From Candidatus Poribacteria bacterium (GTDB lineage: Bacteria > Poribacteria > WGA-4E > WGA-3G), in contig JAAXHO010000279.1 in assembly GCA_012270795.1 (NCBI GenBank), positions 1 through 64,000 of the forward strand: a stretch of 64,000 nt of DNA, written 5' to 3'. Position 1 is the stretch's first letter. Each line of letters starts with the position of its first letter. Both the position numbers and the translations under genes were made by a program. Below the pieces are notes generated by a model, which did no database searches, was not told the origin of the DNA, and saw only the letters and a program-made list of their open reading frames with translations. Below are positions 42,402-59,996 of this stretch, in pieces.

Positions 42402-43106
42402 ATGCACAAACCACGTACAGTTGATGGAATACTCAAAAAAATAAAAGAAAAAGCAGCTACTAGGGAATATCTATACCGTGGCGAACCTGAACATTATCAG
42501 GAAAAACCATATTATGGTAAGGTTTCCTCTAACTTTTATCGTATTTTCCTTGATGACAGAAACAGAAACTTTGATGTTAATGCGGAATACTTCAATATAG
42601 AGGAACTCCAAACAGCAGTCCTGAGTGTTTCTAAACAGTTTTCACGAAAACCAATCAGTGAACTTGAACGCCTTTCTGAAATTCAATACTATGGAGGTAA
42701 AACCAACCTTATAGATTTCACACGAGATTATCTTATTGCGCTTTTCATGGCATGTGATGGATCTCCCGACGAGGATGGTAGGATTATCTTGCAAAAAAAG
42801 AAACTGATGGAACCGTATATTCAAGAGCCTTATGAACCAATAAATCGCGTCATTGCCCAAAAAAGCGTATTCGTGCGGCATCCAGATGGTTTTATTCAAC
42901 CAAACGACGATGACATCATCAATATTCGGTCAGACCTCAAACAGTCAATGCTAATACATCTACGATATTCCCACGATATTTCTGTTGAAACAATCTACAA
43001 CGATATACAGGGCTTTGTAAAAGATCAGAAAAACCACACGCAATTCTACAAGACGATTTATGAAGGTTTAGTCCAAAAGCAGAAAGGAGATACAGGAAAT
43101 GGCTAA
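42402..43106 (+). CDS. FRG domain protein
   Basis: A 234-residue protein with the FRG domain: the F-R-G-like motif is EYLYRGEPEHYQEKPYYGK near residues 22-40, and IQYYGGKTNLIDFTRDYLIA near 93-112 is the second hallmark (usually L-Q-H-Y-G-x-x-T-x-L-L-D). The domain's activity is unknown; it often occurs in accessory or conflict-related genes. There is no signal peptide. The stop overlaps the next gene, a TPR protein, by 8 bases, so the two probably work together. The ribosome site is weak (AAGTGAAGTG). Confidence 0.82.
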   Translation: MHKPRTVDGILKKIKEKAATREYLYRGEPEHYQEKPYYGKVSSNFYRIFLDDRNRNFDVNAEYFNIEELQTAVLSVSKQFSRKPISELERLSEIQYYGGKTNLIDFTRDYLIALFMACDGSPDEDGRIILQKKKLMEPYIQEPYEPINRVIAQKSVFVRHPDGFIQPNDDDIINIRSDLKQSMLIHLRYSHDISVETIYNDIQGFVKDQKNHTQFYKTIYEGLVQKQKGDTGNG

Positions 43107-44121
43107 CGAATCTAAGATGGTGCATTATGAAGAAGCTGCCAAACATTTTACTGAAGCTATTCGTATGAGACCAGGTTTTGCTATGCCCTATATCTACCGG
43201 GGCGAGGTTTACCATAAGATGGGTAAGTTTGATCTCGCAATTACTGATTATACCCAAGCGATTTTTTGGACTCGGCAACCTGCAAGGGCGTATTATGGTC
43301 GTGGTATGGCACACGGTGCTAAAGGCGATATTGACAAAGCAATTGAGGACTTCACGAAGACGATTCAACATGAACCTGAATACGCAGAGGCATATTACCA
43401 TCGCGGACACGCTTATGTTGATAAAAACGAGTTTGATCTGGCAATTGAGGACTGTGATAAAGCAATCCAGCTTAACCCCGACCTTGCTGATGCTTATGTT
43501 GTTCGTGACAATGCCTACAGCGGCAAAGATGAGTTTGACTTTGCTATCATGGACTACAGTAAGGCGATACGACTTAATCCTGATGATGTCTATGTCTATC
43601 GCAAACTCGGGGACCTTCACTTTCTCAAAGGTGATTTTGACACATCTATTGAAAACTATAACACAGCAATAAAATTAGAGATGAATGATGCCCATAACTA
43701 TCACTTTCGCGGTTTTGCTTATTTCCTCAAAGGTGAGTTTGATCTGGCTTTTGCAGATTATGCCAAGGCATTAGAATTAAAATCCGATTATGTTCAAGTC
43801 TATTACACCCGCGCTAGGACTTGGTTATACCAAAAGAAATGGACGAAAGTTAGAGAAGACCTGACAATTGCAAAGGACAAAGGACTGAATATTTCCATCC
43901 TGTTTTGCAAAGGGTACGATAGCGTTGCAGACTTTGAACGGCAAAATGATGTCAAATTGCCAGAAGATATCGCCGCAATGTTGACAGGACAGGAACGAAC
44001 CGTGATCCCACCTGTGCAGGAAAACCAATACCAGCCCCCTTGTAGAATTGAGCTGTCTTTATTTAGGGACATCATCGCGATGGTTCCAGAAGAGGAACAC
44101 GCCCTTCAATTCACCATGTAA
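43099..44121 (+). CDS. TPR repeat protein partnered with the FRG protein
   Basis: A 340-residue soluble protein with about seven 34-residue TPR units from residue 8 to about 245, for example AYYHRGHAYVDKNEFDLAIE and NYHFRGFAYFLKGEFDLAFA. The C-terminal 85 residues are not TPR (DSVADFERQNDVKLPEDIAA). AAAGGAG lies inside the FRG gene, about 10 bases before ATG 43099, which supports coupled translation. TPR stacks bind peptide tails; here the FRG protein is the obvious candidate partner (inference). Confidence 0.85.
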   Translation: MANESKMVHYEEAAKHFTEAIRMRPGFAMPYIYRGEVYHKMGKFDLAITDYTQAIFWTRQPARAYYGRGMAHGAKGDIDKAIEDFTKTIQHEPEYAEAYYHRGHAYVDKNEFDLAIEDCDKAIQLNPDLADAYVVRDNAYSGKDEFDFAIMDYSKAIRLNPDDVYVYRKLGDLHFLKGDFDTSIENYNTAIKLEMNDAHNYHFRGFAYFLKGEFDLAFADYAKALELKSDYVQVYYTRARTWLYQKKWTKVREDLTIAKDKGLNISILFCKGYDSVADFERQNDVKLPEDIAAMLTGQERTVIPPVQENQYQPPCRIELSLFRDIIAMVPEEEHALQFTM

Positions 44122-44196
44122 CAGAAAACCCGTTCCATCAACAGAGCGAAATTGAGTACCGCCCAACCGCTTAATGAAAAAAGTTTCATAGGAATG

Positions 44197-44302
44197 TCAT
44201 GCCCACAAACCAACATCCCAATATCCTCCTCATTATGTCTGATGAGCATGCCCCGATGTACAGCGGACCGTATGGACACCCGCTTGTCCAAACGCCACAC
44301 AT
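44197..44302 (+). pseudogene. Orphan 5' end of a sulfatase gene (106-bp direct copy)
   Basis: Matches 45274-45379 with three mismatches, covering the start codon (44199) and 34 codons of the sulfatase at 45276. After 44302 the sequence changes to the 3' end of the VapC gene and the frame stops at 44357. This copy has AGGAATGTC before its ATG, a better ribosome site than that of the intact gene, so it may carry the original leader, with the VapBC module inserted between the two copies. Confidence 0.88.
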
Positions 44303-44308
44303 AGAAGA

Positions 44309-44725
44309 TCAGTTTGTCCAATTCTCAACTTGCAATCCAAATTCTATAATCCTTTGAAAGTCAGAATCTGCAGAGACGAGAATCGTATCAAATGTCATAG
44401 CAGTTGCAGCAATCCATAGATCGTTTTCTGACATAGCTGTTCCAAGTTGTTCTGTCTGGCTTTTCAAGGTTGCATAATAATCAGCTGTTTCTTTAGGAAT
44501 TGCAAGATATGGCAATTCTTCAAATAGGTTTACGACTTGATTTTCTAAAACTTGTCGTCTGTGCCCTATCGGAAGTCTCTGAATTCCATACAGAATTTCA
44601 CCTCTAACGATTGTGCAGGTAAAAACATAGTCATTTACATCGGATAGGGAATCAAGGTGGGCAGTAACATGAAGATTGTGTGCCATCAATAGACTGCATG
44701 TTGAGGAATCAAGAAGATAGTTCAT
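44309..44725 (-). CDS. VapC-type PIN-domain toxin
   Basis: A 138-residue PIN ribonuclease with acidic residues in NYLLDSSTCSLL, IVRGEILYGIQRLP, SENDLWIAATAM and LVSADSDFQRI. Homologous to the toxin at 33242-33658 along its whole length. ATG 44725 has AGGTAA upstream and overlaps the antitoxin gene by 17 bases; a longer in-frame start at 44812 would run into that gene. Its stop codon lies 7 bases from the sulfatase fragment. Confidence 0.9.
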   Translation of the reverse strand: MNYLLDSSTCSLLMAHNLHVTAHLDSLSDVNDYVFTCTIVRGEILYGIQRLPIGHRRQVLENQVVNLFEELPYLAIPKETADYYATLKSQTEQLGTAMSENDLWIAATAMTFDTILVSADSDFQRIIEFGLQVENWTN

Positions 44726-45032
44726 TAATTTTACCTGTCGACTTATCAAAGACAGAATCAAAACGGATTGGTATTTCTCCCTCTCTAATTGATTGAAGGA
44801 GGACATCTGCATCTTCTTTTGTCACTTGATGTGATTTGTTAATCGCAGCCAATATCTTTTTTGGTTTACCTGTTGGTTCAAGATTCTGTATACTTTCCGT
44901 ATTGCTGATATCTTTTTTTGACAGTATTGATTTTACAAACAGAGATTCTATATACTTCTGTAGTTTTTCAATATCGGAATCAGGCATTTTCTCAATGGTA
45001 TCATGCAACCATTTTTTTGTTTCAACAGACAT
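44709..45032 (-). CDS. VapB-type antitoxin
   Basis: A 107-residue antitoxin. The first 50 residues are helical (TKKWLHDTIEKMPDSDIEKL); the tail holds TKEDADVL and SIREGEIPIRFDSVFD, the likely toxin-binding stretch, shared with the C-terminus of the 587-residue protein at 33658-35421. ATG 45032 has GGAGG 5 bases upstream; an in-frame ATG at 45068 does not. No DNA-binding motif is clear. Confidence 0.8.
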   Translation of the reverse strand: MSVETKKWLHDTIEKMPDSDIEKLQKYIESLFVKSILSKKDISNTESIQNLEPTGKPKKILAAINKSHQVTKEDADVLLQSIREGEIPIRFDSVFDKSTGKINELSS

Positions 45033-45110
45033 AATTTCCTCCATCTCCGTAATTTGCCCTGGGATCATAAACAGAGTAACGGTATAAGTAGTTTTAGCAA
45101 TTGTGCAATA

Positions 45111-45139
45111 AGTTTATCAGAGTTTGCTGTCAATGTCAA
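45111..45139 (-). promoter_or_regulatory. Promoter of the vapBC module
   Basis: On the minus strand: TTGACA (45139-45134), 17-base spacer, TAAACT (45116-45111), about 80 bases before the antitoxin ATG. Confidence 0.55.
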
Positions 45140-45214
45140 GTGTTTGCTTTTTAAAGAGATTGGGAAATGATGTTGCCATGTAGTAGTCGGATTGTATCAA
45201 AATAGGATTTTCTA

Positions 45215-45243
45215 TTGACATTTTGTGCACGTGGTGGTATTCT
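45215..45243 (+). promoter_or_regulatory. Promoter of the sulfatase at 45276
   Basis: TTGACA (45215-45220), 17-base spacer, TATTCT (45238-45243), 32 bases before ATG 45276. The same boxes and spacing occur before the sulfatase at 51782. Confidence 0.55.
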
Positions 45244-45273
45244 ACAAAAAAGCCTTATATTGGATTAGTAGTA

Positions 45274-45379
45274 TCATGCCCACAAACCAACATCCCAACA
45301 TCCTCCTCATAATGTCTGACGAGCATGCCCCGATGTACAGCGGACCGTATGGACACCCGCTTGTCCAAACGCCACACAT
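45274..45379 (+). repeat. 106-bp direct repeat inside the intact sulfatase gene
   Basis: Second copy of 44197-44302. The two copies flank a 971-bp segment holding vapBC and its promoter region. Confidence 0.88.
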
Positions 45380-46694
45380 GGACAGACTCGCTGAAGGCGA
45401 TGTCACCTTCATAAATGCGTATTGCAATTCGCCGCTATGCATGCCGTCACGGATGTCTTTTATGATGGGGCGATATATCCACCACATTGGCGCGTGGGAC
45501 AACGCAGCACCTTTGCGTCCGGATGCTGTCACGTGGGCACATCTTCTACGCGATGCGGGATATGATGTTGTGCTTTCAGGCAAACAACATTTTGGTGGTA
45601 TGGATCAGTTGCACGGCTTTCGTGCGCAACTTGCCAGAGACTTACACGCTGAAAGAAAACATGGACTCACGGATTGGCGAAATGGCACACCAGCAGCATT
45701 CCATCCTTGGCAAGGACCTGCGCGAGCCGGTCCAGGAACGACAGAAGAAATTAAGATAGATGACCTGGCAGAGGCAGCAGCAATTGCCTATCTCCGCGAT
45801 ACTGCAAGGCAGGAACAGCCGTGGGCCCTCAATGTGTCATTCATTGCACCTCACTTTCCGCTGGTTGTACCGCAAAGGTTTTGGGACCTCTACCCACTTG
45901 ATAAGATTGACCTGCCCAACATTCCAGATGGACACCTTGAGAATCAGCATCCCGTGTATCAACGTATGCGTCGAATGTTCGGTTGTGTTGACTTTCCAGA
46001 GGATTTAGTTCGCCGCGCACGTGCTGGTTATTATGGATTGATTACCTATCTTGATGAGAAGATCGGGAATCTGATTCGGACGCTTGAAGAGACAGGTCAG
46101 TTGGAGAATACCGTCGTCATCTATACCAGTGATCATGGTGAGATGAACGGTGAACACGGTATGTGGCGAAAGTCGAATTTTTATGAGGCTTCCTCCCGTG
46201 TGCCGTTGCAGATTATGTTTCCTGATCGGATGTCTGCAGGCAAACACATTGATGAAGTGGTTTCACTTGTTGATTTGACAGCAACGTTGGTGGACATTGC
46301 GGGTGGACATTCCTTAAGTCAATTTGATGGCAATAGTCTGATGGGGTTGATACAAGGGACTGAGACAGCATGGAAAGATTTTGCGTTCTCTGAATATCTT
46401 GCTCATGGTGTTGCACGTCCGATGGCGATGCTGCGGAAGGGACGTTACAAATTCAACTACAGCCTTGGTGATCCGTGTGAACTTTACGATATTTCTGAAG
46501 ACCCTGATGAGTTTTACAACCTTGCAAATGAATTTAGGTATCAGGCAATTTGCCGTGATATGGAAACGCAACTTTTAGCAGAATGGGATCCCGTTGAAAT
46601 TGAGAAACAGGTGCGCGAGAGTCAACAGGCGCGGCTTCTCATTGATAAAGTGACTGCGGGAGAATGGCGTAAACCTCCTTCTGCCGTGATATAA
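45276..46694 (+). CDS. Sulfatase, type I (formylglycine-dependent)
   Basis: A 472-residue sulfatase. NILLIMSDEHAPMYSG starts the metal site; NSPLCMPSRMSFMMGRY holds the C-x-P-S-R core in which Cys is turned to formylglycine; VIYTSDHGEMNGEHGMW gives further metal ligands and GKQHFGG the Lys. There is no signal peptide, so it would act in the cytosol or leave by another route. The layout resembles choline-sulfatase-like or glycosaminoglycan sulfatases; the substrate is unknown. Its leader comes from inserted vapBC-side DNA. Confidence 0.92.
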   Translation: MPTNQHPNILLIMSDEHAPMYSGPYGHPLVQTPHMDRLAEGDVTFINAYCNSPLCMPSRMSFMMGRYIHHIGAWDNAAPLRPDAVTWAHLLRDAGYDVVLSGKQHFGGMDQLHGFRAQLARDLHAERKHGLTDWRNGTPAAFHPWQGPARAGPGTTEEIKIDDLAEAAAIAYLRDTARQEQPWALNVSFIAPHFPLVVPQRFWDLYPLDKIDLPNIPDGHLENQHPVYQRMRRMFGCVDFPEDLVRRARAGYYGLITYLDEKIGNLIRTLEETGQLENTVVIYTSDHGEMNGEHGMWRKSNFYEASSRVPLQIMFPDRMSAGKHIDEVVSLVDLTATLVDIAGGHSLSQFDGNSLMGLIQGTETAWKDFAFSEYLAHGVARPMAMLRKGRYKFNYSLGDPCELYDISEDPDEFYNLANEFRYQAICRDMETQLLAEWDPVEIEKQVRESQQARLLIDKVTAGEWRKPPSAVI

Positions 46695-56689: not shown

Positions 56690-58072
56690 TTAGTGTAAAA
56701 CGCCTTGAGCTTTCAATCGTGAAATTAATTTCGCTTGTGTGCTTTGTCCCTTTGTTGAGTTGCATGCACCGCAGAGGAGTTGTAGGTTGTCCTCGTGGTC
56801 AGTGCCGCCTTGGGATTTTGGTGCGATGTGGTCTACCGTCATGTTCCGAAACGGAAATTGTGTCCTACATCCGTTACATAAACCTTCTTGCTTGCCGAAC
56901 AACGTATGTTTATGTGTACGATAGTTGGGCAGCTTCTCACTCCGTTTCGGTATGTCTGTGCGATGGATAACGTCGCCAAACATGCCTACCTCGCTTTCTA
57001 ACCGTACGCTCACAAGGTCAACCGCTTTAACAGAAATATCAATACCAATCCATTGGCGTTGTAGTCGCTCTGCGGCGACACAAGTTGTGGCGCAACCACA
57101 GAACGGATCTAACACGATGTCGTCTTTATTGCTACTTGCTTTAATGATACGTTCCAATAATGCGATCGGTTTTTGTGTAGGGTAGCCGGTGCGTTCCTCT
57201 TTCGCAGGTGGAAGTACATCATCCCATATATTACCATAGGACGCGCCTTTGTAATCTTTTAGATACTTTCGTCTCTCCAGTTTTCCATCAGGACGAATAA
57301 CGATATTGCCTTTTTGGTATTCCTCCTCTAAACGTTCTTTGCTTAACCGCCATCCTGATGGATGCGGATTTACGAACCTCCGCCATTCATAACATAGGTT
57401 CGGGCGTTCACCCATATTCGGGGTGCGCCAAATATGCGCTGAGTCGTTGTAATACCTTTCTCCATTTTCGTCAACATGCTTGAATTTCTTATAGATTTCA
57501 GTTTCTGTCAATTCTCTTTGTGGACGCAACGATGTAGCTTTAGACGATGCATAATACAAGAGCATATCAGCGTTGTTTCCCCACCGTAAGCTGCGATGCT
57601 GGGATCCTTTTTGCGTAGATGTTGCGCGCTTCCATGTAATCTCAGATCTGAAGTTGTTTTTTCCAAAGATGCTATCCATGATTACCTTCAAATAATGGCT
57701 GGCAGTTGGGTCGCAGTGTAGGTATATACTTCCTGTCTTTTTGAGGACGCGTTTCATTTCTAACAAACGCACCGCCATCATAATGAGATAAGATTTCATA
57801 CCTTTGCCGTGCGTGAGTTCGGCTGCGTGGATTGCTTGATATAAAGCGGGTTCGCGGTCTGCAATTTCGCCGTGCCATGCGTTGTCTACGTCGGAGAGTG
57901 TCCAGGTATCTTTGAAGGCTGCGCCTGCTGCATCACTCCCGATGGGTGCTGCGTAGTTACGATTGGAATTGAAGGGTGGGTCAAGATAGATGAGGTCAAC
58001 GGATCCGGTGTCAATTCCGCGTAGCACGGGAAGGTTGTCGTTTGAGAAGATTGTTCGGTTTTGGACGTTCAT
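56690..58072 (-). CDS. DNA methyltransferase fused to an HNH endonuclease domain
   Basis: A 460-residue fusion. The first 365 residues are a beta-class adenine/cytosine-N methyltransferase: DLIYLDPPFNSNRNY (catalytic DPPF, 31-34) comes first, and IVLDPFCGCATTCVAAERL (AdoMet-binding motif I, about 319) last. Residues about 393-445 are an HNH nuclease: C-N-G-C (399-402), TVDHIAPKSQGGTDHEDNLQ with D-H 414-415 and N 429, then CGACNSTKGQ. So one chain has both modifying and cutting parts, or the HNH acts with the MTase on unmodified DNA. It follows a TPR gene by 22 bases in a run with higBA. Confidence 0.88.
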   Translation of the reverse strand: MNVQNRTIFSNDNLPVLRGIDTGSVDLIYLDPPFNSNRNYAAPIGSDAAGAAFKDTWTLSDVDNAWHGEIADREPALYQAIHAAELTHGKGMKSYLIMMAVRLLEMKRVLKKTGSIYLHCDPTASHYLKVIMDSIFGKNNFRSEITWKRATSTQKGSQHRSLRWGNNADMLLYYASSKATSLRPQRELTETEIYKKFKHVDENGERYYNDSAHIWRTPNMGERPNLCYEWRRFVNPHPSGWRLSKERLEEEYQKGNIVIRPDGKLERRKYLKDYKGASYGNIWDDVLPPAKEERTGYPTQKPIALLERIIKASSNKDDIVLDPFCGCATTCVAAERLQRQWIGIDISVKAVDLVSVRLESEVGMFGDVIHRTDIPKRSEKLPNYRTHKHTLFGKQEGLCNGCRTQFPFRNMTVDHIAPKSQGGTDHEDNLQLLCGACNSTKGQSTQAKLISRLKAQGVLH

Positions 58073-58094
58073 AGTTATTGAGTACGAATTACCT

Positions 58095-59195
58095 TTACAT
58101 CTTTTTCTTAATTTGGGCGATAAGTTCTTCGTCTCCCGCTTCCTGTGCTAGACTTAATGCTTTCTGGAAGTCTTGTGCTGCTTCTACTTCATGCCCCAAT
58201 TCTATTTTTGAGATCCCTCTATTGAAATATGCTTCTATATAATCAGGATTTTTGTGAATAGCCTCATCAAAGTCAGTAATAGCAGCTTCAGAATGCCCTA
58301 GTTCTGCTTTAGCTATTGCTCTACCATTATAAGCTTGGTAGGAGTTAGGATCCAAACGGATGACCGTGTCAAAGTCGGAAATAGCCTCAAAATATCGGCC
58401 TATTAGGCTTTTGGCAAGGGCTCGGTTGATGTAGGCTGTTACAAATTCTGAGTCAAGTCGAATAGCTTCGTCGAAGTCAGAAATAGCAGCTTCAGAATGC
58501 CCTAGCTCACCTTTTGTTGCCCCTCTGCTGTTATATGAAACTGCGTCTTTAGGGTCTAAACGGATGGCTGTGTCAATGTCAGTGAGAGCCGCAAAATGTT
58601 GTCCCATTCTGCGTTTCGCAATACCACGATTATTGTATGCTCTTGCTAAATTTGGATCTAATCTGATTGCCTCATCAAAGTCAGAAATAGCCTCAGTATA
58701 CTGTTTTAGTCTGCTTTTTGAGATTCCCCTATCAGTATAAAAAATTGCATCGTCTGGAACTAAATGGATGGCTGCGTTAAAGTCGGAAATCGCTTCAATA
58801 TATTGATTTATTTCGTTTTTAGCGAGAGCTCGGTTATAGTAAGCATCTATATAATTAGGGTTCAAACGAATTGCCTCGTCAAAGTCAGCGATAGCTTCAA
58901 GATGTTGTCCTAAATCCATTTTGGCAGATCCCCGGTTGTTGTGAGCATCTATATAGTTGGGATCTAAACGAATTGCCTCATCAAAGTCAGAAATGGCATC
59001 AAAGTGTCGTCCTAAATATGCCCTTGCAGTTCCCCTGCCGTGGTAAGCTAAAGCTGAGGTAGGGTCTATATGAATTGCCTTATCAAAGTTGGATATGGCA
59101 CTACTATAATCTTTCTGATTGAATAACTCCCTACCTTTGTCAACGTAGTCTTTGGCAGTTTTAGTAGTGGTTCTGGCAAAATTATCTTTTGTCAT
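58095..59195 (-). CDS. TPR repeat protein in the higBA operon
   Basis: A 366-residue soluble protein built of about ten near-identical 34-residue TPR units (AISDFDEAIRLDPNYIDAHN, then N-R-G-x-A-K-x-x-L-G-x-H), spanning residues 15-345. ATG 59195 lies 10 bases after the higA stop with AGGA before it. Such stacks bind peptide tails. The gene order toxin-antitoxin-TPR recalls toxin-antitoxin-chaperone operons, in which a SecB-like chaperone guards the antitoxin; a TPR protein in that place is not something I know described (inference). Confidence 0.88.
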   Translation of the reverse strand: MTKDNFARTTTKTAKDYVDKGRELFNQKDYSSAISNFDKAIHIDPTSALAYHGRGTARAYLGRHFDAISDFDEAIRLDPNYIDAHNNRGSAKMDLGQHLEAIADFDEAIRLNPNYIDAYYNRALAKNEINQYIEAISDFNAAIHLVPDDAIFYTDRGISKSRLKQYTEAISDFDEAIRLDPNLARAYNNRGIAKRRMGQHFAALTDIDTAIRLDPKDAVSYNSRGATKGELGHSEAAISDFDEAIRLDSEFVTAYINRALAKSLIGRYFEAISDFDTVIRLDPNSYQAYNGRAIAKAELGHSEAAITDFDEAIHKNPDYIEAYFNRGISKIELGHEVEAAQDFQKALSLAQEAGDEELIAQIKKKM

Positions 59196-59205
59196 CAGGC
59201 TTTTC

Positions 59206-59637
59206 CTATGCAAACTTGGATTCAGATGTCTCAATATCTATTAATTTGTCTCGAATGAAGTCTCTATCTGATTCTTCTCTGTTTTGTTGTTCTAATGTTA
59301 CCTGATTCATAGGTTCTGCTTTCATAACTCGTTGTTCCCCCACCTTATTTTTTGCGGGAACAATACGAATTTCTATGTCATGATTCAGATGAGTCAGAAA
59401 AGTCAATAATCGTTCAACACTGTAATGATTAAACTTTCCCTTCTTGAGCCGAGAGATTTCGGGTTGCTTGACACCTAAAATATCTGCAGCCTCAGCTTGC
59501 GTTAACTTCCGCGCTTCTATAATCCGGAACACCTCATATCCAAGTTGGGCTTTGAGATGCAATTCCTCTGCATCCGGTAGATCGAGATCTGCAAAAACAT
59601 TGCCTGAACTCTCTTCAAATTTAACTTTTTTACTCAT
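59206..59637 (-). CDS. higA: HigA-type antitoxin (XRE family) with a C-terminal extension
   Basis: A 143-residue antitoxin. VFADLDLPDAEELHLKAQLG is the usual start of the partner of Gp49/HigB toxins; an HTH follows (RKLTQAEAADILGVKQPEIS, then R-L-K-K-G-K-F). The core usually ends near residue 105, but here about 38 more residues follow (KAEPMNQVTLEQQNREESD and beyond), charged and probably flexible. In toxin-antitoxin-chaperone systems such a tail makes the antitoxin depend on a chaperone. The start overlaps the toxin stop as ATGA. Confidence 0.85.
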   Translation of the reverse strand: MSKKVKFEESSGNVFADLDLPDAEELHLKAQLGYEVFRIIEARKLTQAEAADILGVKQPEISRLKKGKFNHYSVERLLTFLTHLNHDIEIRIVPAKNKVGEQRVMKAEPMNQVTLEQQNREESDRDFIRDKLIDIETSESKFA

Positions 59638-59996
59638 AGTTTCCCTTCCCTTTCTTGTGCCATTTTCAGACGCTTTTTGATTAAGTCTATCTCTTTCTTT
59701 GGTGTTTTTATACCTTTCTTTGCTTTTTTCTGAAAACAGTGTAGGACATAAATCTGCTCCCCAATTTTTACGGCATACACAGCACGATAGGTATTAGTTT
59801 TATGTGTAGCCCGTATTTCAAATATCCCTGGACCGATGTGCTTAAGTAGTTTCGCCGCTGAAGATAAACTTCCCGCTTGTGCAGAGAACAAAGCGTCCCC
59901 AATATCCTTTTGAACAGATTTCGGAAATTTTTTAAGCTTTTTCTTAGCGTTTCCAACCCAAACGACTTGCTTCAAGACTCGTTTTATGTCCATCAT
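59634..59996 (-). CDS. higB: HigB-type toxin, RelE superfamily (Gp49-like)
   Basis: A 120-residue basic mRNA interferase-like toxin: KKLKKFPKSVQKDIGDALFS, IGPGIFEIRATHKTNTYRAV, IYVLHCFQKKAKKGIKTPKK and EIDLIKKRLKM are standard Gp49/HigB blocks. The ATG lies 6 bases after a TATAAT box, so the mRNA would start at or next to the A of the ATG (leaderless). Toxin before antitoxin is normal for higBA. Confidence 0.9.
   Translation of the reverse strand: MMDIKRVLKQVVWVGNAKKKLKKFPKSVQKDIGDALFSAQAGSLSSAAKLLKHIGPGIFEIRATHKTNTYRAVYAVKIGEQIYVLHCFQKKAKKGIKTPKKEIDLIKKRLKMAQEREGKL

Follow-up and report, generated by a model that had tools for sequence, protein, structure and literature searches.

The window analysed here is a stretch of 64,000 nucleotides from Candidatus Poribacteria (contig JAAXHO010000279.1, positions 1 to 64,000 of the forward strand), and all positions are counted along it. 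Two adjoining genes on the plus strand are the subject of this analysis. The upstream gene (42402–43106, 234 aa) carries an FRG domain (PF08867; PDC-S15) and is predicted to encode an ADP-ribosyltransferase (ART)-like effector. The downstream gene (43099–44121, 340 aa) encodes a TPR protein (TPR_1, E 6.7e-51, 168.6 bits in the Pfam search) that carries a conserved C-terminal domain, called CTD below. A ribosome-binding site of the TPR gene, AAAGGAG, was read within the FRG gene at 43083–43089 (plus strand). It is followed, after 9 nt, by ATGGCTAA at 43099–43106 (plus strand), which holds both the ATG of the TPR gene and the TAA of the FRG gene. Thus, the 8-nt overlap of the two reading frames and the position of the TPR ribosome site inside the FRG gene, both claimed in the original prediction, are borne out.

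The core match of the FRG protein to PF08867 is encoded at 42465–42773 (plus strand) and contains the invariant residues R26-G27, T101, I104 and F106. It scores 33.7 bits against a Pfam cut-off of 25, over residues 22–124. The protein resembles known FRG families in matching both PF08867 and PDC-S15; the latter, a PADLOC defence candidate, is the best of 12 matching models (E 1.4e-12). R26-G27 is invariant in alignments of 33 and of 76 rows, and residue 96 is Tyr in the window protein vs His in 125 of 137 aligned FRG sequences. No evident invariant acidic residue (Glu) is present in the FRG alignment at the usual third ART position. Q153, which would lie near the expected place of this residue, is invariant in alignment A1. 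Some ARTs lack the catalytic acidic residue.

The AlphaFold model of the window FRG protein, made with 75 relatives, has a pLDDT of 86.2 and a pTM of 0.83. The VIA-align comparison of this model gave 121 entries with Z of at least 2. We take the best 50 of them (Z 6.4 to 4.5) to be all ART-superfamily proteins, some according to their names; the list is redundant, many of these 50 entries being the same few proteins. The top match has a Z of 6.4 and an rmsd of 4.0 over 116 residues, a Z below 8 being not decisive for the fold, and the matches cover mostly residues ~20–184 of the model. Judged by the starts of the alignment ranges, and if the first aligned residues are ungapped, R26 would presumably coincide with the catalytic Arg that is conserved in the first strand of several ARTs. 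Foldseek alone gave weak matches (best E 0.08, with P450 rows mixed in), and a sequence search of the PDB with A2 gave no match at E 10.

With moderate confidence, the model of the window FRG protein is taken to have an ART-like fold. This fold is likely according to the uniform list of ART proteins together with the published assignment of Frg to the ADP-ribosyltransferase superfamily, as given in Iyer et al. (2022; PMC9503650). There, one sentence places Frg among characterized signal-generating enzymes, and another states that Frg 'might' be an NADase. The earlier statement that FRG domains have no known activity should thus be changed. The window model agrees moderately with the RES/Frg immune members of the superfamily treated there. 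The FRG passages of that paper mention no TPR partner for Frg, whereas the window FRG, known here from its sequence and model, is coupled to TPR.

In the downstream protein, seven TPR repeats of 34 residues were read at 43138–43851 (plus strand). The CTD, with ~48 residues, is located at 43846–43986 (plus strand, E 2.1e-22) and is predicted to be a helical cap. In the model of the last repeats and the CTD (pLDDT 92.6), three short helices come after the last TPR helices and would form this cap. The VIA search with the TPR-CTD model gave TPR proteins as matches, and no PADLOC model matched the window TPR protein at E 0.1. Matches of the CTD to SMI1_KNR4/SUKH_6 were found for two of six queries at E 0.03–0.11, below the cut-off; the CTD was not accepted as a SUKH piece, and these matches are kept as a lead. 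The own genome contains 84 TPR matches vs only three CTDs. These three are in the window gene, in the FRG gene of contig C51 and on contig C214, so that two are FRG-linked. The CTD is present in 42 of 59 genomes.

The number of TPR repeats is 7 in the window, 6 to 19 in the orthologues, and 13 or 18 in the nearest orthologues. Near-identical repeats form 62 pairs, found in 23 of 250 proteins; between the paired repeats, 230 nonsynonymous and 173 synonymous single-base codon differences were counted, with no neutral ratio applied. Positive selection on the repeats was rejected on these counts, and the 62 pairs gave no sign of a fast-evolving sensor in the TPR array beyond the repeat number.

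Downstream of the pair on the plus strand, a sulfatase ORF (PF00884) is located at 45225–46694, and its ATG matching the duplicated 5′ end is at 45276. The 5′ end of this gene is present twice (117 nt, 94%), at 44189–44305 (plus strand) and at 45266–45382. Between the two copies of this direct repeat (44189–45382) lies a VapBC-like pair on the minus strand (44309–45068), with a PIN gene at 44309–44812 (PF01850, E 4.4e-13) and a partner at 44709–45068 that has no Pfam match over the cut-off. The first sulfatase-like ATG follows the TPR stop codon after 77 nt, a spacing like that of the orthologues. VapB or PIN matches between the TPR and sulfatase genes were found in only three (L085, L087 and L090) of 23 orthologous loci with this sulfatase. 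According to the arrangement of the sequence, the VapBC-like pair is judged to be a later insertion outside the FRG-TPR unit. The toxin-antitoxin module that the original prediction had placed directly next to the genes was thus rejected as their partner, since it sits in an insertion scar made of the duplicated sulfatase 5′ end. A second case resembling a repeat-bracketed VapBC-like insertion was observed in L095, around 192–1498.

Coupling of FRG and TPR in relatives

FRG homologues were found in 65 of 145 relatives searched. From the matches listed, not all of which were taken, 120 regions were read (119 from relatives and one with a paralogue of the own genome), and greedy gene calling gave no FRG gene in four of them. 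The regions contain 133 FRG genes. In 76 of these, FRG is fused in frame to TPR repeats, and in 54 the TPR gene is the next gene after FRG. One FRG gene, that of C51 in the own genome, is fused to the CTD only, with a run of N between. The last two genes are neither fused nor followed by TPR, and one of them, in L066, is a disrupted copy. Accordingly, FRG is fused to TPR or stands before it in 130 of 133 genes, and the pair is conserved outside this genome.

The junction is also similar in relatives. The overlap of ATG and stop with an internal ribosome-binding site recurs in the nearest relatives of the window. In many other separate pairs, a ribosome-binding site is present at the end of FRG and the TPR start comes just after the FRG stop; gaps of up to 62 nt separate the reading frames in some pairs. 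Three FRG genes with TPR repeats are present in each of the loci L142, L156 and L116, which suggests local duplication.

As a background set, we read 30 FRG matches, together with 1.5 kb of flanking sequence, that came from a search directed mainly at another phylum. Five were set aside as belonging to this phylum or unscored: L285, L286, L292 and L294, which have TPR, and L289, which was unscored. Of the 25 scored matches outside the phylum, 22 have no TPR in the gene or in the 1.5-kb flanks, and three, in G294 and G315, have TPR. TPR coupling is rare there and is therefore the mark of a single FRG subfamily, not a general property of FRG. The window subfamily, coupled to TPR-CTD, differs in this point from the other members of PF08867 and PDC-S15.

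Records of other groups make up 5 of the 80 loci kept out of 216 that encode a relative. According to the record labels, these groups are Dehalococcoidia, Caldilineaceae, another Chloroflexota, Entotheonella and Nitrospira. All six FRG genes in these five loci are fused to TPR, and the CTD was detected in four of the six. As to the direction of FRG-TPR transfer between phyla, the tree shows three changes with a forced minimum of one and favours no direction.

Exchange of effectors on the TPR-CTD module

Among the best 150 CTD places, 26 are outside the fetched regions, one has no gene call, and 123 are readable. FRG is present at 65 of the 123, fused at 34 and directly upstream at 31, with the window added by hand. 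A TIR domain is fused at 26 places and a PIN-like gene lies upstream at five (by motif), these two classes being assigned, beyond the representatives tested with Pfam, by custom HMMs or a short motif. An HNH-like N-terminus is found at two places and an antitoxin-like N-terminus at one. The other 24 places have other arrangements or TPR-CTD alone, without a recognised effector.

Sixty CTD regions without FRG were selected by hand from the same 150 places. In Pfam searches of representatives, TIR was identified in three, DUF2971 in one and PIN in one, together with Eco57I enzymes upstream; the HNH match of a TPR-CTD representative is below the Pfam cut-off, and the PIN-like example in L333 has no Pfam match. 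In L354 (2334–3225), a PIN-like gene precedes a fusion gene in which TPR-CTD is combined with an antitoxin-like N-terminus of the 'DNELYELG' type. The same layout is observed in L123, L127 and L148, the PIN domain being confirmed with Pfam for L354 only.

In the rows inspected, the commoner TIR type has a C-x-x-E stretch, which we take to be the catalytic motif. Module members with TIR match the TIR_2 and ThsB models and are in this respect like ThsB of Thoeris. They differ from effectors such as ThsB and SpbK, the latter described as a TIR NADase in PMC12847820, in that their TIR domain is attached to TPR-CTD. These observations, together with the fusions, indicate that the FRG-TPR pair is a real, conserved and modular unit. 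As the same TPR module occurs with other immune-type domains, we regard the pair as a probable member of a modular defence-like family and not as a chance neighbourhood.

At least 150 residues are present past the CTD in 29 of 203 CTD genes (13 with TIR, 12 others, 4 with FRG). A TaqI_C target-recognition domain was identified in this part in four of five tested, and the fifth has DUF4268. No TaqI_C-type domain is present in the window FRG-TPR pair. Some TPR-CTD proteins thus share a terminal TaqI_C-type recognition domain with type IIG restriction enzymes (Eco57I/TaqI_C); they differ from these enzymes in that those tested have no methylase match, and in that the recognition domain is not closest to that of the neighbouring enzyme in five of seven loci. 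The idea that the TaqI_C domain matches the specificity of the neighbouring restriction-modification (RM) enzyme was rejected, the own enzyme being the best match in only two of the seven loci, with small margins. TIR- or FRG-TPR-CTD proteins with a terminal TaqI_C domain were seen in L302 (5534–8197), L306 (951–6224) and L163 (5057–6106), with Eco57I-type enzymes in the same regions.

RM genes were counted around the loci that lie in genomes covered by the background search, the observed genes being those similar to five Pfam-confirmed seeds, themselves from the CTD loci, and the background being Pfam matches: on this basis 15 Eco57I-type genes vs 1.72 expected are near the 60 CTD-selected loci (526 kb), and 9 vs 0.81 are near the TIR loci. 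In the case of FRG, 7 vs 2.19 expected are near the 82 non-window loci (634 kb; P 0.007), and 7 vs 3.19 near all FRG-selected loci together (P 0.044). No RM enrichment was found near the 34 window-type FRG loci (0 vs 1.0 expected in 275 kb). The association with restriction enzymes thus holds for the CTD, TIR and non-window FRG loci and is not seen for the window type.

Possible function of the FRG-TPR pair

The reading that we favour, as having a little better than an even chance of being right, is that the split FRG and TPR-CTD unit is an NAD-targeting effector under TPR-CTD control and serves as a conflict system. The two window genes would be the split, translationally coupled form of a single protein design, in which an ART-like FRG effector is combined with a TPR array closed by the CTD. 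The TPR-CTD would act as an exchangeable module for control and sensing, which is joined also to TIR and to a few other effector-type domains. It would keep FRG inactive; when a signal linked to an intruder is sensed, it would release or assemble FRG. The active FRG would then consume NAD+ or transfer its ADP-ribose. Shutdown of the cell by FRG would follow the logic of abortive infection, with phage as the presumed target. Phage defence by the pair is putative, and the window-type loci, with no RM enrichment and a stable sulfatase neighbour, fit a settled role at least equally.

This settled role is the first alternative: in the window lineage, the pair would belong to the sulfatase locus, with a regulatory or metabolic task, and would have lost its conflict role. 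Of 35 window-type loci (L063–L098 minus the paralogue L092, some of which stop at contig ends), 23 have the same sulfatase (77–93% identity) downstream of the TPR gene and in the same orientation, and the distance to the TPR gene is at most 130 nt in 12 of the 23. The opposite flank, with the thioredoxin and kdtA genes, is common only to L063 among the 120 regions. The window FRG gene is under purifying selection, with a dN/dS of 0.12–0.21 against seven orthologues (dS above 1 in two of the seven). As the sulfatase stays downstream, the window copy looks settled and not mobile, and the conserved FRG-TPR-sulfatase locus under purifying selection makes a mobile accessory gene unlikely here. Judged by its sequence context, the FRG-TPR unit of the window lineage may have settled into a sulfatase locus. 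As the whole explanation this role is unlikely, if the strongest of the rivals. The regions read around the other FRG-TPR copies (L099–L182) gave no sulfatase of more than 70% identity, and we know of no FRG domain linked to sulfatases.

A toxin-antitoxin pair, in which FRG is the toxin, TPR is a separate antidote, and both are made together through the overlap, seems slightly less probable again. Two small overlapping genes with separate products in the window and a toxin-like fold speak for it, as do the PIN-like genes that precede TPR-CTD genes whose N-terminus is antitoxin-like, among which only L354 has the Pfam PIN match. However, the single-chain FRG-TPR proteins (76 of 133) and the TIR-TPR-CTD fusions suit a self-regulated effector better.

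Poribacteria are associated with sponges, and TPR proteins of theirs have been included among eukaryotic-like proteins, which would suit a symbiont protein delivered or displayed to the host. This is improbable for the window genes: no hydrophobic N-terminal signal was seen by eye in the FRG or the TPR protein, and the module, being joined to TIR or FRG, has restriction enzymes in its vicinity. That two unrelated genes stand side by side by chance, as the commonness of TPR matches in this genome (84) might suggest, is practically refuted by the fusions.

Returning to the NAD-targeting effector, a wider proposal is more tentative, and we would rather doubt it than not. One immune family would share a TPR-CTD module with interchangeable NAD-attacking domains, FRG/ART or TIR, and some members would carry a restriction target-recognition domain, so that reading of a DNA site leads to loss of NAD. 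If this is true, DNA-site reading by a restriction-type domain would trigger NAD loss and not DNA cutting, and the pair in the window would represent a split family member that lacks the DNA-reading domain. Among the papers listed, which include neither subscription papers nor preprints, none describes a family of FRG-TPR or TPR-CTD proteins. FRG domains are widespread and are filed as likely NAD-acting enzymes. With FRG and TIR exchanged on a common TPR-CTD module, FRG is connected to a well-studied class of NADases, and its activity and control can be predicted in a directly testable way.

The results also suggest a part in conflict systems for some of the numerous TPR proteins of these bacteria. 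The original prediction had seen TPR partners of conflict genes as a theme of this region, with the TPR gene adjoining higBA (58095–59234) as a further example. According to the CTD search of the own genome, this gene has no CTD; it is of a different kind from the TPR-CTD gene treated here. At 56690–59996 of the window, this TPR gene is accompanied by the higBA-like pair and by a gene that resembles, by eye, a DNA methylase with an HNH end.
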